Positions 40,163 to 47,569 of a stretch of DNA of 64,000 nt are shown here, piece by piece. The translations under genes were made by a program, and so were the position numbers. How positions within the stretch are numbered: position 1 is the first letter of the stretch; every line of letters starts with the position of its first letter. Under the pieces are notes generated by a model. It saw only the letters and a program-made list of their open reading frames with translations, had not been told where the DNA came from and made no database searches. This DNA is from Nitrosomonas sp. (GTDB taxonomy: Bacteria > Pseudomonadota > Gammaproteobacteria > Burkholderiales > Nitrosomonadaceae): contig JAMWZR010000009.1 of assembly GCA_024282035.1 (NCBI GenBank), positions 1 to 64,000 on the forward strand. Reading direction: 5' to 3'.

Positions 40163-43100
40163 TCAGTCAGGATGTTTTTTCTCGTGTTCCTCAACGTGTG
40201 GTAGCGGCGAAATAGCGGGTGAAGGATCTGTTTTGGATTCACGGCGCAGGGATACGAACCAGGAAAAGAACAAAGGCACAAAAATGGTGGCAACGGTCGT
40301 CGCCATGATCATGCCGCCAAAAACACCGGTTCCCATCGATTGCCGTGCAGCCGATCCGGCTCCGGTCGCAATGACCAGGGGCACGACCCCGAGAATGAAA
40401 GCCATCGAAGTCATGACGATCGGACGGAAACGTAATTGTGCCGACTGTAGGGCAGCCTGTGTCATGCTGGCCCCCTGTTTCATCTGCTGACTGGCGAATT
40501 CAACTAGCAGGATCGCATTCTTGGCCGTCAATCCGATCAGTGTCACCATGCCGATCTGGAAATAAATGTCGTTGGGCATGTCACGCAGCAGGATGGCGAC
40601 CAGTGCACCGACCATGGCAAAGGGAATGGCCATGATGACAGCCAGCGGCAATGCCCAAGTTTCGAACTGCGCTGCCAGAATCAGAAACACCATCACAACT
40701 GCCAGACTGAAAGCAAAGATGGCCGCATATCCCATTTTTTTTTCCTGAAATGCCGTACCCGTCCACGCGATCTGATACCCTTCCGGCAAGACCCGGGCGG
40801 CCACTTCCTCAACCAGTGCGATGGCATCTCCGGAACTCACGCCTGGTGCACCGCTGCCTACCATTTTGGCTGCCAGCAGTCCATTGAAGCGCTCGAGTTG
40901 TTCTGCTCCGACGATGTCCCTGATCCGGCTCAAGGCCGACAGCGGAACCATTGCACCGGAAGCGGAGCGGACATAGACCTTGCCCAGATCCTCAGCCCGC
41001 ATGCGGAATGGCGCTTCGGCCTGTAGCTGTACGCGATAGGTTCTACCGGAACGGTTGAAATCATTGACATAGAACGACCCCATGGTGCTTTGCAGCGTGG
41101 CGTAAATGTCGGCAATGGAGACACCTTGTGAAATGGCCTTGGCCTCATCCACCTCGATGAAATATTGCGGGACAGTGGTACGCAAGAAGGTATTGACGGT
41201 TGCCAGTCTGGAGTCTTGTTTCAATGCCTGGGTCAATTCGGTGACGACGCGACTCAGTTGTGTGGGGTCGGCGTTATTACGGCTTTGTACGTAAAGCTCG
41301 AATCCACCCGTACTTCCCAATCCTCGAATGGCTGGCGGATTAAATGCGATGGCCATGCCGTCGGGCTGCTGACTGCCGACCATGAACAGCTTCTTGACGA
41401 TATCGCTGGCACTGGTAGCGCGTTCCGACCAGTCTTTCAAACGGATGAACATCGTGGAAACATTGGTTTTATTGCCGCCACCGATGAAATCCAGGCCGTT
41501 GACGGCAAACTGATAGGTTATGGCAGGATCTTTGGCTATTTCGCTATTGATGGCGCGTGCAGTTTGCGTGGTCCTAGCCAGGGTGGCGCTATCCGGCAAA
41601 ATGACGGCTGCGATGACATAGCCCTGATCTTCGGGGGGCACGAAGCTGTCGGGGATGTTCTTGAGCAGAAAGCCCAGGCCGACGATGAGTAGTAGAAAGA
41701 TCACTGCACTACGCGCAGCGTGACGCAAACTCAGATCCACCATACCGACATACCGGGAGCGCAAGTGGTCGAAATACCTGTTAAATCTGTCGAAAAAGAC
41801 CGACTGTTGGTGGGTTGGGCGCAATAGAACTGCGCAAAGTGTCGGAGTCAGCGTCAGGGCAACGATGCCGGATATCACGGCGGCCACGGCCACCGTCACT
41901 GCAAATTGCTGATACAGTTCTCCGGTGATGCCACCCAAAAAAGCAACGGGTATGAAGACGGCTGCCAGTACCATGGTCATGGCCACCACTGCGCTGGATA
42001 CCTGTTGCATGGCCTTGATGGCTGCGGCAAATGGCGACAGATTTTCCTGCGACATCAGACGTTCGATATTCTCCAGTACCACAATGGCATCATCGACTAC
42101 GATACCGATGGATAGCACCATGGCAAACAGCGTCAGCGTATTGATCGAGTAACCCAGTAACCATAAGCCGGCAAAGGTGCCGATCAGCGAAATCGGAATG
42201 GCAATGACGGGGATCAGGGTGGCGCGCCAGCTTTGCAGGAACAAATAAACCACCAGCACAACCAGCAGCATGGCTTCTCCCAGGGTTTTGACGACTTCCC
42301 AGATCGATGCCTTGACAAAGGTGCTGGTGTCGTAGGAAATGAAATACTGCATGCCTTCCGGAAAGTAGTGCTGGAGTTCGTTCATCTTGGTTTTCACGGC
42401 TGCTGCGGTTTCCAGGGCATTGGCACCGGAGCGCAGAAAAATACCGATACCGAGGCCGGGTTCGCCATTCAACAGAGTACTGGTGGCGTAATCCTGCGCA
42501 CCCAGTTCGATGCGTGCTACATCTTTCAAATACAAAGCGCCGCGAGGACCATCGGCGCGCAGCAGGATATGTTCGAACTGCTCCGGCTCCAGCAAGCGGC
42601 CTTTGGCTGTCACGGTGTAAACCAATTGCTGGTCGGTGACAGCGGGCTCCTGACCAATTTTGCCGACTGCCTGCTGTGCATTTTGCGCCCGAATGGCATT
42701 GGCAATGTCGCTGGTCGTAATACCCAGTTGTGCCATGCGGTCGGGGCGCAACCAGATGCGCATCGAATAATCCTGGGCACCGAAAATCCGGGCCTCTCCC
42801 ACACCGCTCGAGCGCCGCAAATCGTCCAGGATATTACTGGTAATGAAGTTACTCAGATACAAAGCGCTGTGCTGCGGATTCTTTGACGTGATTGCAAACA
42901 CCACCAACAGATCGTTTGAACGCTTCTGAACGGTGAGACCGGAGCGGCGAACCTCATCCGGCAGACGCGCCAGCGCGGTATTGATTTCGTTGCTGACGTT
43001 GAAGGTGGCGCGATCGATATCCGTACCGATCTCGAATGTGATGGTGATGGTCAGCCTTCCGCTCGAATCTGCGCTGGAATTGAAATACAGCAACCCCTCG

Positions 43101-43315
43101 ATGGCGCTCAGTTTTTCCTCGATTGGAGCCGCCACGGTCTTGATCATGGTTTCGGCATTCGCTCCAGGGAAGGTTGCGGTCACAATCACGGTCGGTGGAG
43201 TGATTCGGGGATATTGCTCGATCGGCAACTGGATCGCTGCTGCGAGACCCGCAAGGACGATGATGATCGATAGTACCGAGGCGAAAATAGGGCGGGTTAT
43301 GAAAAATCTGGCCAT
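40163..43315 (-). CDS. RND multidrug efflux pump, AcrB/MexB type
   Basis: 1050 aa, the full HAE1 size. It starts MARFFITRPIFASVLSIIIVLAG; RND motifs include GIVVDDAIVVLENIERLM (Asp pair of the proton relay), FVPPEDQGYVIAAV, and a C-terminal half with VTLIGLTAKNAILLVEF. It is a trimeric inner-membrane proton antiporter exporting drugs or other amphiphiles. It follows its membrane fusion protein by 8 bp. No outer-membrane channel gene is next to it, so it must use a TolC-like protein encoded elsewhere. aroK-aroB follows 30 bp downstream on the same strand. Confidence 0.95.
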   Translation of the reverse strand: MARFFITRPIFASVLSIIIVLAGLAAAIQLPIEQYPRITPPTVIVTATFPGANAETMIKTVAAPIEEKLSAIEGLLYFNSSADSSGRLTITITFEIGTDIDRATFNVSNEINTALARLPDEVRRSGLTVQKRSNDLLVVFAITSKNPQHSALYLSNFITSNILDDLRRSSGVGEARIFGAQDYSMRIWLRPDRMAQLGITTSDIANAIRAQNAQQAVGKIGQEPAVTDQQLVYTVTAKGRLLEPEQFEHILLRADGPRGALYLKDVARIELGAQDYATSTLLNGEPGLGIGIFLRSGANALETAAAVKTKMNELQHYFPEGMQYFISYDTSTFVKASIWEVVKTLGEAMLLVVLVVYLFLQSWRATLIPVIAIPISLIGTFAGLWLLGYSINTLTLFAMVLSIGIVVDDAIVVLENIERLMSQENLSPFAAAIKAMQQVSSAVVAMTMVLAAVFIPVAFLGGITGELYQQFAVTVAVAAVISGIVALTLTPTLCAVLLRPTHQQSVFFDRFNRYFDHLRSRYVGMVDLSLRHAARSAVIFLLLIVGLGFLLKNIPDSFVPPEDQGYVIAAVILPDSATLARTTQTARAINSEIAKDPAITYQFAVNGLDFIGGGNKTNVSTMFIRLKDWSERATSASDIVKKLFMVGSQQPDGMAIAFNPPAIRGLGSTGGFELYVQSRNNADPTQLSRVVTELTQALKQDSRLATVNTFLRTTVPQYFIEVDEAKAISQGVSIADIYATLQSTMGSFYVNDFNRSGRTYRVQLQAEAPFRMRAEDLGKVYVRSASGAMVPLSALSRIRDIVGAEQLERFNGLLAAKMVGSGAPGVSSGDAIALVEEVAARVLPEGYQIAWTGTAFQEKKMGYAAIFAFSLAVVMVFLILAAQFETWALPLAVIMAIPFAMVGALVAILLRDMPNDIYFQIGMVTLIGLTAKNAILLVEFASQQMKQGASMTQAALQSAQLRFRPIVMTSMAFILGVVPLVIATGAGSAARQSMGTGVFGGMIMATTVATIFVPLFFSWFVSLRRESKTDPSPAISPLPHVEEHEKKHPD

Positions 43316-43323
43316 GGGCGTGC

Positions 43324-44538
43324 TTAGGGATGTTGGGTGGAAGCAGTCGGAGTAATCGATGATACGGTCGTGCCGCGTGGCTTGGGATCAACGGTCTTGC
43401 CAGGCATGAGTTTGATCAGATTGTCCACGACCACCTTGTCGCCGGATTGCAAGCCATCAAGGATGATCCAGTCTTTACCTATCCAGTCACCGGCTACTAC
43501 TTGGCGCTGAGCAACGGTATTGTTGTCGTCGATGACATAGACAAACCGGCCCGTATCTGCGGTCATCACGGCGATTTGGGGAACGATGAAAATGCTGCGG
43601 GGTTTGCCGGCAGACACTCGGATGCGCACAAACTGGCCGGGCAGGATGCGTTGATCAGCATTGTCAAATGTGGCCCGCAGCTGTTGTGTACCCAGTGCGG
43701 CATCAATGGTGCTGGCCGCAAAATTGATCCGGCCTTGCTGTGGGTATTCCGAACCATCGGTCAGCATGATTCTGACACTATGTACATTGTTTTCACTGAG
43801 TCTTTCACCCAGTCGCGCAGTTTCATTATCGGAAAAACTGAAGCGTACCCATATCGGTGACAGTTGACTCAAGGTTGTCAGCAAACTGGTGTTGGCTGAT
43901 AGCAGGGCACCTTCTGAGACCTGGGAACGACCTGTGACGCCGTTAATCGGAGCCTTGACTGTGGTGTAACTCAAGTTGAGCTCGGCCTGCTTGACACGGG
44001 CCTTGGCCGCCTGCAAGGTGGCTTCGGCCGCTGCGAGATCCGCCACGGCGCTATCGAGGGCACGTTGACTGACGAAGTTTTCTGCCGCCAGTCGTCGCTG
44101 CCGTTGTTCTTCGGTTTTGGCACGCGCAACCTTAACCTGTTGTTCGGTATGAGCAGCTCTCGCTTCTGCAAGCGCATTCCGGAAAGGTTCCGGATCGATC
44201 TGGAACAATGTTTGCCCGGCTTCAACGGTGTTTCCTTCCGCGTAGAAACGTTTCAGCAAAATACCACCCACTCGGGGGCGTATTTCTACTTCTCTGGCGC
44301 CTTCGGTCTGGGCGATGGTCTCAAGGGTAACGGGCATATTGACCGGCGTGACCTGAAGATAACTAACTGGAATCGCCTGATCAGCTCGAGGTGTGGATTG
44401 TCCTTGTTGCTTGCCACAACCGACCAGCAATAAACCGAGCACACCGCAGCCAAATGCGATTCTGGATGCAACTAAGGCGAACTTAAGAGTTTGATACGAT
44501 TTCAATGAATGAGTGAGAGTGACAAAATGGCTCGGCAT
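43324..44538 (-). CDS. RND periplasmic adaptor (membrane fusion) lipoprotein, AcrA/MexA type
   Basis: 404 aa from the ATG at 44538; the frame is open to 44670, but the segment from 44538 leads directly into a lipoprotein signal (GVLGLLLVGCGKQ). Typical adaptor blocks are VEIRPRVGGILLKRFYAEGNTVEAGQTLFQIDPEPF, a coiled-coil hairpin (about 110-190, with repeated AEARAAHTEQQ and ADLAAAEATLQAAKARVKQAELNL), then YTTVKAPINGVTGRSQVSEGALL. It bridges the pump and an outer-membrane channel. First gene of the efflux operon, divergent from the multicopper oxidase. Confidence 0.93.
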   Translation of the reverse strand: MPSHFVTLTHSLKSYQTLKFALVASRIAFGCGVLGLLLVGCGKQQGQSTPRADQAIPVSYLQVTPVNMPVTLETIAQTEGAREVEIRPRVGGILLKRFYAEGNTVEAGQTLFQIDPEPFRNALAEARAAHTEQQVKVARAKTEEQRQRRLAAENFVSQRALDSAVADLAAAEATLQAAKARVKQAELNLSYTTVKAPINGVTGRSQVSEGALLSANTSLLTTLSQLSPIWVRFSFSDNETARLGERLSENNVHSVRIMLTDGSEYPQQGRINFAASTIDAALGTQQLRATFDNADQRILPGQFVRIRVSAGKPRSIFIVPQIAVMTADTGRFVYVIDDNNTVAQRQVVAGDWIGKDWIILDGLQSGDKVVVDNLIKLMPGKTVDPKPRGTTVSSITPTASTQHP

Positions 44539-44853
44539 GGCGTGAATCATCGCGTGTTTGGACAAAATTAAGGTGCAGCGGGATCGATTGTGCAAAAACC
44601 ACAAAAGCTTAGTACGCTTATGTATAATGGCCTCGATAAAAGTTTGACGGATAGTGTAGAAGTATTGCATAGATGAAGTTAAGATTTCTCCGTAATTTTA
44701 CCTGCCTGCAGATACATGCTCGAATGTATTTCGTACCTCTAAATCTGTCTTACCCGATGGATACTGTTTTTTAAACCGGTAGCGGATAGAAATTCCATGC
44801 TCCGCGGGGTTTTGTACATTTTTTTCATTGAAAATTTTTTAAGGTGCGTTGAT
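44539..44853. other. divergent intergenic region between efflux and copper-oxidase operons
   Basis: About 315 bp with promoters for both operons. It contains the inverted repeat at 44712-44729. Otherwise only A/T-rich sequence is seen. In-frame extensions of both flanking genes reach into it but lack ribosome sites. Confidence 0.5.
44712..44729. promoter_or_regulatory. inverted repeat, candidate operator
   Basis: ATACAT-GCTCGA-ATGTAT: perfect 6-bp arms with a 6-nt spacer, about 125 bp upstream of the multicopper oxidase and 175 bp upstream of the adaptor gene. Size and place suit a dimeric repressor. It does not match a known CueR or CusR box, and no regulator gene is adjacent. Confidence 0.35.
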
Positions 44854-46569
44854 ATGCCTAGACATTTTTTTATTGCCATATTGACTTTCTACTTGATGTC
44901 AACCGCAGCGGTTGTACAGGCATCACTGAAGTTGCCCGCAACTGTAAAAGTAGAATCAGCGGCGCTGACAGCCGAACCCATGTGTGATCCGAAGATTTCA
45001 CTGGCATGGCGTGAGGCCCAGGAGATCGATGGGGTCAAGATTGATGCTTCTCCGGGATGCAGTCCGGACAATCCGGTCTGGATTGCCGCAGCGGTAAAGG
45101 GAACCAACAATATCTCGATGGATACCCTGATGAAAACCGGTTTGTCGCCGGATGCCATCATCAAAACCGATGATATCGATGGCGATGGCGATCCGGATCG
45201 CATCATCATCAAACTGGAAATCATGGAACTGAACGGACGTTCACCGGACTTCCCTGGTATCGTGCCGACCTTCGACATTGCTCCAGGGGTTCAACCGGGT
45301 GCTTGGGTATTTGCGCCCAAAACCAGCGGTATGTCTACCGAGAACTTTGAGAGTGTCAGAGCCAATCCTCTGCTGCGCCTGCCTTCACCCGTAATCCGGG
45401 TCGAACAGGGCGATATCGTGCAGATCGTGCTCGAAAATACGCATTATTTTCCACACAGTATCCATCTGCATGGCGTGGATCATCCATTTTCACATGGTGA
45501 GCATGGCGGACAGGACGGCGTGCCACAGACCAGTGAGGTCGAGTTGATGCCCGGTGGTCGCAGGGTTTATCAATTCCAGGCGCGTCAACCCGGTACCATG
45601 TTCTATCACTGCCACGTGCAGACGCATACCCATCTGGCGATGGGTCTGGCCGGGATGATCGTGATCGAAGAAAACAAACCGAATAACTGGGTGCAGACGT
45701 TGAATATTGGCGGTGGGCATGTACGCCACCGGTCCGTTGCTGTTCGCGAGCAATTCGATCAGGAATACGATTTACATTATCACGCGATGGACAAGGAATT
45801 GAGCGAGATCATCCAGAAATACAATGATCCGCGCCTGATTGCACGCGATATGAATCAGCGCTACGACATCACCGATGCGACCGAGGATTACTACACACTG
45901 AACGGTCTGTCATTTCCCTACACGTTGCGAGAATCGCTGATCGTGGTTGATCCGGATCAGAAAATCAAACTACGCATGCTGAATAGCGGTGGGGAACTGA
46001 TTGCAGTACACACACACGGCCATCATGCCACGATCACTCATTACGATGGCGTGGAACACAATCCTGCTGCCCAGATCATGCGCGATGTGTTTGACATGGC
46101 ACCGGCACAGCGTCTGGATCTTAAACTGGAAACCATCGATGACGGCAAACATAGTTATGGTCCGGGGGACTGGCTGATTCATGATCACCGGGAAAAAGGC
46201 ATCACGACCAATGGTATGGCTGAAGGCGGCAGCATGAGTTCAATCGTCTACAAGTCCTATCTGGGTGAATCCGGAATGCCCAAAGTCAGCCATTTCGGCA
46301 TCGATCTGAGTCAATACTTTACCAAGGAATATTTCGAGAGACGGGTACCCATTTGGCAAAACCTGGATGATTTTGCGAGCCTGGGATCGCCGGGAGGCGA
46401 TGACGGGCTGAGTGCTGCCAATCAGGCCACTTTGCTGAACGCTTTGATTGGCTTGTTAATCGGACTTCTGGTTTATGGCGTTTTTGCCAAACGTGAATAT
46501 ATCAAGCAAACCTTTATGGCGATGGTTTCGCGCAGCAAGGACGCAAAAGGGGGTACGAATAATGGTTAA
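44854..46569 (+). CDS. membrane-anchored multicopper oxidase, two cupredoxin domains
   Basis: 571 aa from the ATG at 44854 (AAGGTG eight bases upstream; signal peptide MPRHFFIAILTFYLMSTAAVVQA). Copper ligands: H201, H204, H206 in PHSIHLHG and HCHVQTHTHLAMGLAGM (252-268) in the first domain, giving both trinuclear and type-1 ligands; HTHGHH (386-391) and IHDH (443-445) in the second. The type-1 Cys appears only in domain one, as in type-C two-domain oxidases, which are known from Nitrosomonas. A calcium-loop-like DIDGDGDPD (108-115) sits before domain one. A C-terminal helix (about 527-545) with basic tail anchors it, facing the periplasm. The substrate is unknown. The cupredoxin gene overlaps its 3' end by 8 bp. 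Confidence 0.88.
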   Translation: MPRHFFIAILTFYLMSTAAVVQASLKLPATVKVESAALTAEPMCDPKISLAWREAQEIDGVKIDASPGCSPDNPVWIAAAVKGTNNISMDTLMKTGLSPDAIIKTDDIDGDGDPDRIIIKLEIMELNGRSPDFPGIVPTFDIAPGVQPGAWVFAPKTSGMSTENFESVRANPLLRLPSPVIRVEQGDIVQIVLENTHYFPHSIHLHGVDHPFSHGEHGGQDGVPQTSEVELMPGGRRVYQFQARQPGTMFYHCHVQTHTHLAMGLAGMIVIEENKPNNWVQTLNIGGGHVRHRSVAVREQFDQEYDLHYHAMDKELSEIIQKYNDPRLIARDMNQRYDITDATEDYYTLNGLSFPYTLRESLIVVDPDQKIKLRMLNSGGELIAVHTHGHHATITHYDGVEHNPAAQIMRDVFDMAPAQRLDLKLETIDDGKHSYGPGDWLIHDHREKGITTNGMAEGGSMSSIVYKSYLGESGMPKVSHFGIDLSQYFTKEYFERRVPIWQNLDDFASLGSPGGDDGLSAANQATLLNALIGLLIGLLVYGVFAKREYIKQTFMAMVSRSKDAKGGTNNG

Positions 46570-47569
46570 GCAAACGACAGCACTCATGGTGGCCAGTATT
46601 TTCGCAATGAGCGTTCCCGCACTTGCCCAACAACCTGCCAAGCCCAATGAGCATGTGCATGATCATGGTGCTGACACCGCACCATCCAAATCCGCTAACG
46701 GTCAACCCAAGTCAGATGAGCACGATCATCATGATCACAGTGGCCATACGATGAGTCAGGATAAAGGGACTGCAGTTGACCACGAAGGCATGCACGCAGA
46801 TGATCATAGCCAGCATGACATGGATCACGATCATGCGACCGATCATAGCGCGCACTCTGCCCAATCGACCGAACATGGCGATGGCCATCACCATCACCAT
46901 ATGGATAATGATCACATCATGGATCACGAAGGCACCATGATCATGGGACAGAATCTGGACAAGCTACCAAGCAGCTGCAAGAGTATTTCGGAATCGGTCG
47001 AAATTACCGTCAAGGCTGGTAGAAAATATGCCAGAAATTTCCCTGGTACAGCATTTGCCTTTGATCAGCAGCAATGGAATGTCAAGCCTTGTTCGAAAGT
47101 GACCTTTCATTTTGTCAATGAAGATAACATTCGCCATCAGTTCATGATGCATGGCCTGCCTAAGTATCTGTACAAATATGGCATGTTCCATTTGGAAGTT
47201 ACCGGTCCCAAAACGGTATCGGGTACCATCATTGTTCCCGGTTCCGACGATACGTTCCTCGTTCACTGCGATATCTCACATCACATGGAGAAGGGCATGA
47301 AAGCGCAGCTGGTGGTGGGCAAGGGCGCCGAGAGTATTCCCAGTATCCCGGGATTGACGCCGTACAATCGTAATGACACCTATGAAGCCGAGAATCTACC
47401 CAAGGCTTCGGACAAGGCGGCACAAAGTGCCATGGTTCGGCAGATCACGGCATTCACCAACAACAGTAATATGCAGAATTACGCCATGATTGGTTTGGGC
47501 GCGTTGCTGGGATTGTTTGTGATTCCTTTATTTAGAAAAATTCTGCTACGCAAAAAATCAACAGAGTAA
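46562..47569 (+). CDS. His-rich, membrane-anchored cupredoxin
   Basis: 335 aa from the ATG at 46562, with AGGGGG upstream inside the oxidase gene. After a signal peptide (cleavage near ALAQQ), residues about 30-125 are extremely rich in His, Asp and Met (EHDHHDHSGH, DGHHHHHHMDNDH), likely a copper-collecting region. A cupredoxin domain follows: IRHQFMMHGL (His192) and FLVHCDISHHMEKGM (Cys236, His240/241, Met246) give a type-1 copper set. A C-terminal helix (about 307-324) with tail FRKILLRKK anchors it in the inner membrane. It probably supplies copper to, or exchanges electrons with, the coupled multicopper oxidase; this role is inferred from the operon. Confidence 0.85.
   Translation: MVKQTTALMVASIFAMSVPALAQQPAKPNEHVHDHGADTAPSKSANGQPKSDEHDHHDHSGHTMSQDKGTAVDHEGMHADDHSQHDMDHDHATDHSAHSAQSTEHGDGHHHHHMDNDHIMDHEGTMIMGQNLDKLPSSCKSISESVEITVKAGRKYARNFPGTAFAFDQQQWNVKPCSKVTFHFVNEDNIRHQFMMHGLPKYLYKYGMFHLEVTGPKTVSGTIIVPGSDDTFLVHCDISHHMEKGMKAQLVVGKGAESIPSIPGLTPYNRNDTYEAENLPKASDKAAQSAMVRQITAFTNNSNMQNYAMIGLGALLGLFVIPLFRKILLRKKSTE

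Follow-up and report, generated by a model that had tools for sequence, protein, structure and literature searches.

A membrane-anchored multicopper oxidase–cupredoxin pair of Nitrosomonas with relatives in copper membrane monooxygenase operons

In a 64,000-nucleotide stretch of DNA from Nitrosomonas sp. (contig JAMWZR010000009.1, positions 1 to 64,000; hereafter the window), two overlapping genes encode a two-domain multicopper oxidase (MCO) and a cupredoxin with a His-rich arm, both with a predicted membrane anchor. The association of this pair with the copper membrane monooxygenases (CuMMOs), namely ammonia monooxygenase (AMO), particulate methane monooxygenase (pMMO) and their relatives, the enzyme family with which ammonia or methane oxidation begins, is well supported. 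On balance, we favour the hypothesis that the pair represents, in Nitrosomonas, a periplasmic anchored module serving CuMMOs as an O2-coupled copper-loading or copper-quality unit, whose chemistry is probably Cu+ oxidation and copper loading.

The association is illustrated by gene order. The pair lies inside a CuMMO operon in 11 genomes, in the order (C-)A-B-PmoD-like-MCO-cupredoxin (loci L211, L215, L236-L242, L244 and L245). Nine of these operons came from a set of 20 CuMMO regions and the other two from eight class- or phylum-level loci. Their CuMMO genes were recognised by Pfam in three loci (PF02461 in L211, L215 and L244, PF04744 in L211 and L244, PF04896 in L244) and by BLAST in the remaining ones. 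Moreover, in a Methylococcaceae contig (L153), MCO and cupredoxin genes stand ~2.8 kb upstream of pmoC, pmoA (Pfam) and pmoB (BLAST).

The gene upstream of the methanotroph pair belongs to the PmoD family, as its profile matches PmoD (PDB 6cpd, E 1.3e-13). Of the 25 methanotroph loci, 23 have room for such a gene and all 23 carry it, 19 of them ahead of the MCO and 4, which lack the MCO at this place, ahead of the cupredoxin. In Nitrosomonas, the same profile matches two genes behind amoB, observed at three loci (L187-L189; amoB by Pfam in L187). A small VTT-domain membrane protein was also seen 3' of the cupredoxin in 9 of the 11 CuMMO operons and in many methanotroph loci (e.g., L244:9447-9887, Pfam in L244). 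The first-pass annotation of the window had described the pair as self-contained, which is doubtful given that the same cassette, outside Nitrosomonas, includes a PmoD-family gene and in many cases one for a VTT-domain protein. Separately, one Nitrosomonas genome (G087) carries a lone PmoD-like gene (L186:1435-2043) that matches the methanotroph cassette profile at E 6e-45, outscoring amoD/amoE, with no MCO or cupredoxin seen within 3.5 kb. At L154, L163, L166, L170, L220, L221 and L224, no MCO stands between the PmoD-like gene and the cupredoxin, and the MCO is found elsewhere in the genome.

To examine the association at genome level, we used one subunit family, CuMMO-A. It was matched in 25 of 30 distinct cupredoxin-bearing genomes versus 0 of 33 non-holders (Fisher 5.8e-13), in a comparison where the holders are not random, being seven of the nine class-level holders outside Nitrosomonas plus a hand-picked methanotroph-order set, and where 26 class-level non-holders are the first listed. 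By their coordinates, the other two class-level holders are G380 and G385, while G871 and G383 are one genome, counted once. Two genomes were left out of the table, G1238 (weak, E 3e-20) and G455 (MCO only), both without a CuMMO-A match.

We then considered how the pair itself is distributed, keeping in mind that the sampled genomes differ in completeness. Among 120 Nitrosomonadaceae genomes (80 Nitrosomonas and 40 from three other genera), the cupredoxin was detected in 65 of the Nitrosomonas and in none of the 40 others. A high-scoring MCO adjoins it in 64 of these 65 holders (places compared singly). The remaining holder (G116) has a cupredoxin split close to the end of a contig, gave no such MCO and carries fragments of the nirK-linked two-domain MCO; in a further genome (G118), lacking the cupredoxin, a truncated MCO lies at the edge of a contig. 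The two proteins thus form a conserved unit in Nitrosomonas with their ligands kept, as first proposed, and the conservation of the features of the pair shows that they are more than chance. The locus set, the best 80 of 117 confirmed stretches, comprised 55 from Nitrosomonas or close metagenome-assembled genomes (MAGs), including N. oligotropha, N. ureae, N. eutropha, N. supralitoralis, N. marina and N. aestuarii, and 25 from Methylococcales or close MAGs. In 21 of these 25, the MCO adjoins the cupredoxin, and the other four genomes carry the MCO elsewhere.

Overall, the pair is near-universal in the methanotroph order, i.e., the order of Methylococcus (M. capsulatus genome G371): both genes are present in 152 of 161 genomes, neither in 7, the cupredoxin only in 1 and the MCO only in 1 (Fisher 1.3e-10 for co-occurrence). 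It is rare in broader draws, with 11 of 369 genomes positive at class level (two Nitrosomonas and, by coordinates, three of the Methylococcus order) and 3 of 398 at phylum level (two Nitrosomonas, one weak). It is therefore not a unit of ammonia oxidisers as such, considering its frequency in methanotrophs, its absence from the other family genera sampled and its place in CuMMO operons elsewhere. It should be noted that Methylococcales also contain a second, paralogous MCO-cupredoxin pair (L194-L199, L201, L219), adjacent in 7 of the 8 paralogue loci examined; the H258 position differs in 7 of 9 paralogous MCOs (L200 counted), and L219 has a further cupredoxin with masked sequence nearby, beside which no MCO was seen. 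No clear rule tied the pair to nirK within Nitrosomonas.

The copper ligands of the MCO were examined in alignments of the 117 loci plus the window, from which matches below 250 bits (MCO) or 100 bits (cupredoxin) were dropped. Pfam matched Cu-oxidase_3 and Cu-oxidase_2, and two stretches of the protein align with the two-domain MCO 3g5w (also 2zwn). The three type-1 (T1) ligands and all eight His of the trinuclear site (Table 1) are invariant in 109/109 MCOs, the distant L218 protein included. C253 is the sole T1 Cys, the second domain having the motifs HTH (386/388) and HDH (443/445) and no Cys, which agrees with the earlier placement of the T1 ligands in the first domain only. The T1 His had been put at H258; we correct it to H260, conserved in 109/109 versus 88/109 for H258 and aligned with a His of 3g5w that we take to be its type-1 copper ligand. 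M263 and M268 are both candidates for the axial Met. As read from these alignments, the protein has the ligands expected of an O2-reducing multicopper oxidase, those of the trinuclear site included.

An alignment of 34 upstream regions, from 33 Nitrosomonas loci and the window, shows a conserved leader, aaaGGTgCgTTgATATG, which backs the start of the MCO at 44854; a search of the same regions for an upstream regulatory motif returned only the start-codon region. The MCO also possesses an extra N-terminal domain of ~145 residues, absent from the first-pass annotation, in which D107, D109, D111, D113 and D115 are conserved in 109/109 and C44 and C69 in 108/109. No Pfam match was obtained for this domain, and its PDB matches (PPR designs, best E 0.0009, a glycosyl hydrolase and protocadherins; E 0.0009-0.39) were judged to be chance. 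The predicted structure of the whole MCO (single chain, mean pLDDT 54) was too poor and was not used.

In the cupredoxin, each of the T1 ligands H192, C236, H241 and M246 is kept in 108/108 proteins, as are C139 and C177. With its His, Cys, His and Met ligands in a cupredoxin fold, the protein qualifies as a type-1 cupredoxin. Both proteins have a signal-peptide-like N-terminus and end alike in a hydrophobic 19-mer followed by a K/R-rich tail, as first described; these calls were made by eye and hydropathy. The transmembrane (TM)-like C-terminus is found in 56/56 Nitrosomonas MCOs (100/109 overall) and in 56/56 Nitrosomonas cupredoxins (101/108 overall).

The stretch ahead of the cupredoxin domain had been described as about 95 residues rich in His, Asp and Met. 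This is right for His and Asp (24 and 17 of 102 residues), not for Met (5 only). Over this arm the confidence of the predicted model is low (blocks of 38-59 over residues 21-120). Measured as at least 10 His in the 100 residues before M128, the arm is present in 56/56 Nitrosomonas cupredoxins, in 0/28 type 1 and 0/9 type 2 sequences of the methanotroph order (0/37 together), in 0/9 of the set of CuMMO-operon regions and in 2/6 class-level members (L211 and L215, both in CuMMO operons). In type-1 methanotrophs, the cupredoxin leader is short (H..MDHGDGHLMDMDGGMVMGQN). On this comparison of sequences, the His-rich arm is outside the shared core of the module. Its occurrence in Nitrosomonas and in two class-level members indicates that it was gained or lost more than once. 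The cupredoxins of these two operons (L211:5346-6155 and L215:5566-6468) differ from the other operon members in carrying separate arms, His-rich or made up of DHSQM repeats.

How the module would work can be outlined from these features. MCOs oxidise a one-electron donor at the T1 site and reduce O2 at the trinuclear site. The cupredoxin would carry Cu+ and/or electrons to the MCO by means of its T1 site and a His/Met leader, which may have been enlarged into the His-rich arm in Nitrosomonas. The MCO would move the electron from the T1 copper to the trinuclear site, reducing O2 to water. Copper in its safe form, Cu2+, would then reach the CuMMO by way of the PmoD-family protein, or else surplus Cu+ would be cleared around the CuMMO. 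The module would work like CueO or PcoA but be dedicated to a copper membrane enzyme.

General periplasmic copper detoxification of the CueO/PcoA kind, kept by chance in copper-rich bacteria, would also use an MCO with a full complement of copper ligands and a His-rich partner. The best NCBIfam match of the MCO is the CopA/PcoA model copper_res_A (TIGR01480), though at 56.4 bits against a cut-off of 478.95, with the CueO model NF008205 at 39.3 bits (cut-off 525), and the adaptor gene upstream of the pair in the window points the same way by its Pfam match (see below). Such a general role is hard to reconcile with the rarity of the pair at class and phylum level, with CuMMO-A in six of the seven class-level holders tested outside Nitrosomonas and with the placement of the pair in CuMMO operons; we regard it as improbable.

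A substrate among Cu+, NO, hydroxylamine or other compounds had been left open in the first-pass annotation, and conversion of NO, hydroxylamine or nitrite can be examined here. The MCO matches the NirK model TIGR02376 distantly (46.1 bits, cut-off 296.3). In a fold comparison, the cupredoxin model is nearest to nitrosocyanin and auracyanin, with NirK domains next, while its profile gave nothing at E 0.01 against PDB sequences; the nitrosocyanin match is one of fold at 14% identity, and the NCBIfam matches include no nitrosocyanin model. Methanotrophs also encounter hydroxylamine. Nevertheless, the ligands, trinuclear site included, are those of an O2-reducing MCO, the pair is near-universal in the methanotroph order, and it was not found in the other three family genera, which are ammonia oxidisers by family membership only. 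In addition, a separate NirK coexists with the pair in the genome of the window (469.9 bits) and exceeds the cut-off in 58 of 65 holders. Nitrogen-oxide chemistry is thus very unlikely, and NO or hydroxylamine as a dedicated substrate is disfavoured by the distribution and CuMMO-operon placement. We also discarded two identities for the MCO. It is not the nirK-linked two-domain MCO of Nitrosomonas (presumably ncgA), a separate gene; four genomes (G007, G011, G067 and G091) carry both. Nor was its identity with the highly expressed "NirK" of N. ureae (PMC5960693) retained, considering the NirK genes just mentioned.

Several observations weigh against a copper-loading unit for CuMMOs. The relatives of the pair lie in CuMMO operons in 11 genomes, yet in the window the neighbours are RND-efflux-like genes and not amo, and the PmoD profile had no match in the genome of the window. 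Neither the 40 genomes of the other three family genera nor 15 of 80 Nitrosomonas, some of them incomplete, yielded the pair; its absence there indicates that it is not required for CuMMO use in general. Moreover, the pair is not seen in 11 of the 20 CuMMO regions, some of these 11 being truncated where the contig stops. Of the 152 genomes of the methanotroph order with both genes, 132 were compared, and their top-scoring MCO and cupredoxin adjoin in 62 and are apart in 70. Genes occurring mostly apart had been named as the result that would speak against the unit; this is not so in Nitrosomonas, but the best-scoring genes of the methanotroph order do stand apart in a majority. Five holders lack a CuMMO-A match (G573, G386, G437, G371 and G381). 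For the Methylococcus capsulatus strain (G371), an assembly gap is likely, whereas the assembly of G573 consists of one contig and is 99% complete.

In this last genome, the PmoD-MCO-cupredoxin triad stands directly behind cox1, two COX3-like genes and cox4 (L212, 6045-11987). This is an exception to the CuMMO link and possibly reflects copper supply to cytochrome oxidase. A location next to the genes of cytochrome oxidase, likewise a copper enzyme of the membrane, is what copper supply would predict, and this neighbourhood, a single case, fits copper supply better than substrate-specific catalysis.

The main rival to copper loading is electron transfer, in which the anchored cupredoxin would be a redox partner of the CuMMO or an acceptor from the quinone/cytochrome pool, and the MCO an O2-reducing overflow or oxygen-trimming partner. 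The operon position behind CuMMO A-B-PmoD, the complete T1 site of all 108 cupredoxins, the anchors on both proteins and the triad adjoining the cytochrome oxidase operon are all in keeping with this. On the other hand, the pair is missing from genomes of the other three genera and from 15 of 80 Nitrosomonas, in which a CuMMO is expected, so the cupredoxin cannot be the general electron donor of CuMMOs, and reductant would be lost if the cupredoxin fed an MCO that reduces O2. As far as sequences and gene order go, the evidence fits both copper loading and electron transfer; the latter is possible but considerably less probable in our judgement.

Concerning the origin of the copper-loading module that we favour, Nitrosomonas sequences (14 of 56 were taken) form one clade in both the MCO and the cupredoxin trees (support 1.0), and its sister is methanotroph in each, L153 for the MCO (0.95) and L153 with L154 for the cupredoxin (0.965). 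The two nodes that follow in the MCO tree (0.922 and 1.0) comprise methanotroph sequences and Nitrosomonas alone. The corresponding node of the cupredoxin tree lacks support (0.086), and the node at which this group joins the type-1 methanotroph sequences has 0.796. Other outgroups gave the same nodes. Since the Nitrosomonas pair branches among methanotroph sequences, the trees suggest a transfer between the two groups, probably out of a methanotroph lineage and into Nitrosomonas. The distances among the MCOs correlate with those among the cupredoxins (r 0.908, n=57, 0/2000 label permutations), a correlation that still includes shared species history.

The features of the pair in the window are given in Table 1. 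The coordinates, strand, lengths and overlap of the first-pass annotation all held.

Table 1. Predicted features of the MCO-cupredoxin pair, in positions of the window
Feature	Position	Strand	Basis or remark
Membrane-anchored two-domain MCO, 571 aa	44854..46569	+	Pfam Cu-oxidase_3/_2, 3g5w/2zwn matches, conserved upstream leader
MCO signal-peptide-like N-terminus, residues 1-23, VQA|S	44854..44922	+	by eye and hydropathy
MCO orphan N-terminal domain, residues 26-174, DxDxDGDxD loop and two conserved Cys	44929..45375	+	
MCO domain 1: T1 H201, C253, H260; trinuclear H204, H206, H252, H254	45376..45681	+	
MCO domain 2: trinuclear H386, H388, H443, H445; without T1 Cys	45883..46257	+	
MCO C-terminal TM-like segment, residues 527-545, basic tail	46432..46488	+	hydropathy 2.34
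MCO/cupredoxin reading-frame overlap, 8 bp	46562..46569	+	same 8-bp overlap in 13/20 other Nitrosomonas loci
Membrane-anchored cupredoxin with His-rich arm, 335 aa	46562..47569	+	predicted model and fold match
Cupredoxin signal-peptide-like N-terminus, residues 1-22, ALA|Q	46562..46627	+	by eye and hydropathy
His/Asp-rich arm, residues 23-124	46628..46933	+	seen in Nitrosomonas; most relatives have a short one or none
Cupredoxin domain, residues 139-255, T1 H192, C236, H241, M246	46976..47326	+	
Cupredoxin C-terminal TM-like segment, residues 310-328, basic tail	47489..47545	+	hydropathy 1.93

On the opposite strand, a divergent RND pump (recognised by eye) and a HlyD/CusB-like adaptor adjoin the pair (window 40163-44670, - strand). 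The adaptor matches the Pfam "CusB or HlyD" and HlyD models, and a homologue is present in 48 of the 55 Nitrosomonas loci. A copper role of this efflux adaptor is neither shown nor excluded.

How copper and electrons are delivered to CuMMOs is a long-standing question; one accessory already known is PmoD. The present pair, near-universal in a methanotroph order, located in some CuMMO operons and apparently transferred between methanotrophs and Nitrosomonas, offers a concrete genetic handle on this question. More tentatively, and with rather low confidence, we consider that PmoD/AmoD, the MCO and the cupredoxin could together be the missing copper/redox complex of CuMMOs in gammaproteobacterial methanotrophs and most Nitrosomonas. 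If so, an O2-driven Cu+/Cu2+ cycle beside the CuMMO would load or re-activate its copper sites or gate electrons, and loss of the complex would help to explain why isolated pMMO is less active than pMMO in whole cells.

Among known proteins, 3g5w, which we take to be the N. europaea blue copper oxidase, and 2zwn align with both copper domains of the MCO and share the T1 Cys in domain 1 and the trinuclear His split over the two domains. Unlike them, the MCO has the extra ~145-residue N-terminal domain, the C-terminal membrane anchor and a cupredoxin partner. The nirK-linked two-domain MCOs of Nitrosomonas are 37-42% identical to it, in the copper domains only. CueO and CopA(PcoA) belong to the same superfamily and probably share the use of Cu+ with the MCO, which differs from them by its two copper domains, its anchor, its NCBIfam scores far below the cut-offs and its relatives in CuMMO operons. 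The cupredoxin is 14% identical to nitrosocyanin and 22% to auracyanin, neither of which, to our knowledge, has a His-rich arm or an anchor of this kind. The MCO of Nitrosopumilus maritimus (PDB 9cck), likened here by fold and title only, has a C-terminal cupredoxin domain within one fused archaeal protein.

The literature was covered in part. In the portions covered, the pair is not described in papers on ammonia oxidisers (PMC5960693, PMC4940428, PMC3764937, PMC3772326 and PMC13374858) or in the M. capsulatus genome paper (PMC517821), and no paper was found that reports this MCO-cupredoxin pair or places it in CuMMO operons, subscription papers lying mostly outside this coverage. From the same partial coverage, one-domain blue copper proteins are known near archaeal CuMMO genes (PMC9038741), and Noc0889, a multi-copper oxidase of Nitrosococcus oceani beside cytL and haoAB, responds to ammonium (PMC3772326). 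Also among the closest known systems is PmoD/AmoD/AmoE (PMC6189053, PDB 6cpd), the operon partner in the wider family and a copper protein of CuMMO genomes. The parts of that paper examined report PmoD homologues near MCO genes and contain no description of the MCO, of its cupredoxin partner or of a fixed order. While the proximity of PmoD homologues to MCO genes was thus known, the two-domain MCO and the cupredoxin as part of a CuMMO accessory cassette are, on the literature covered, new.

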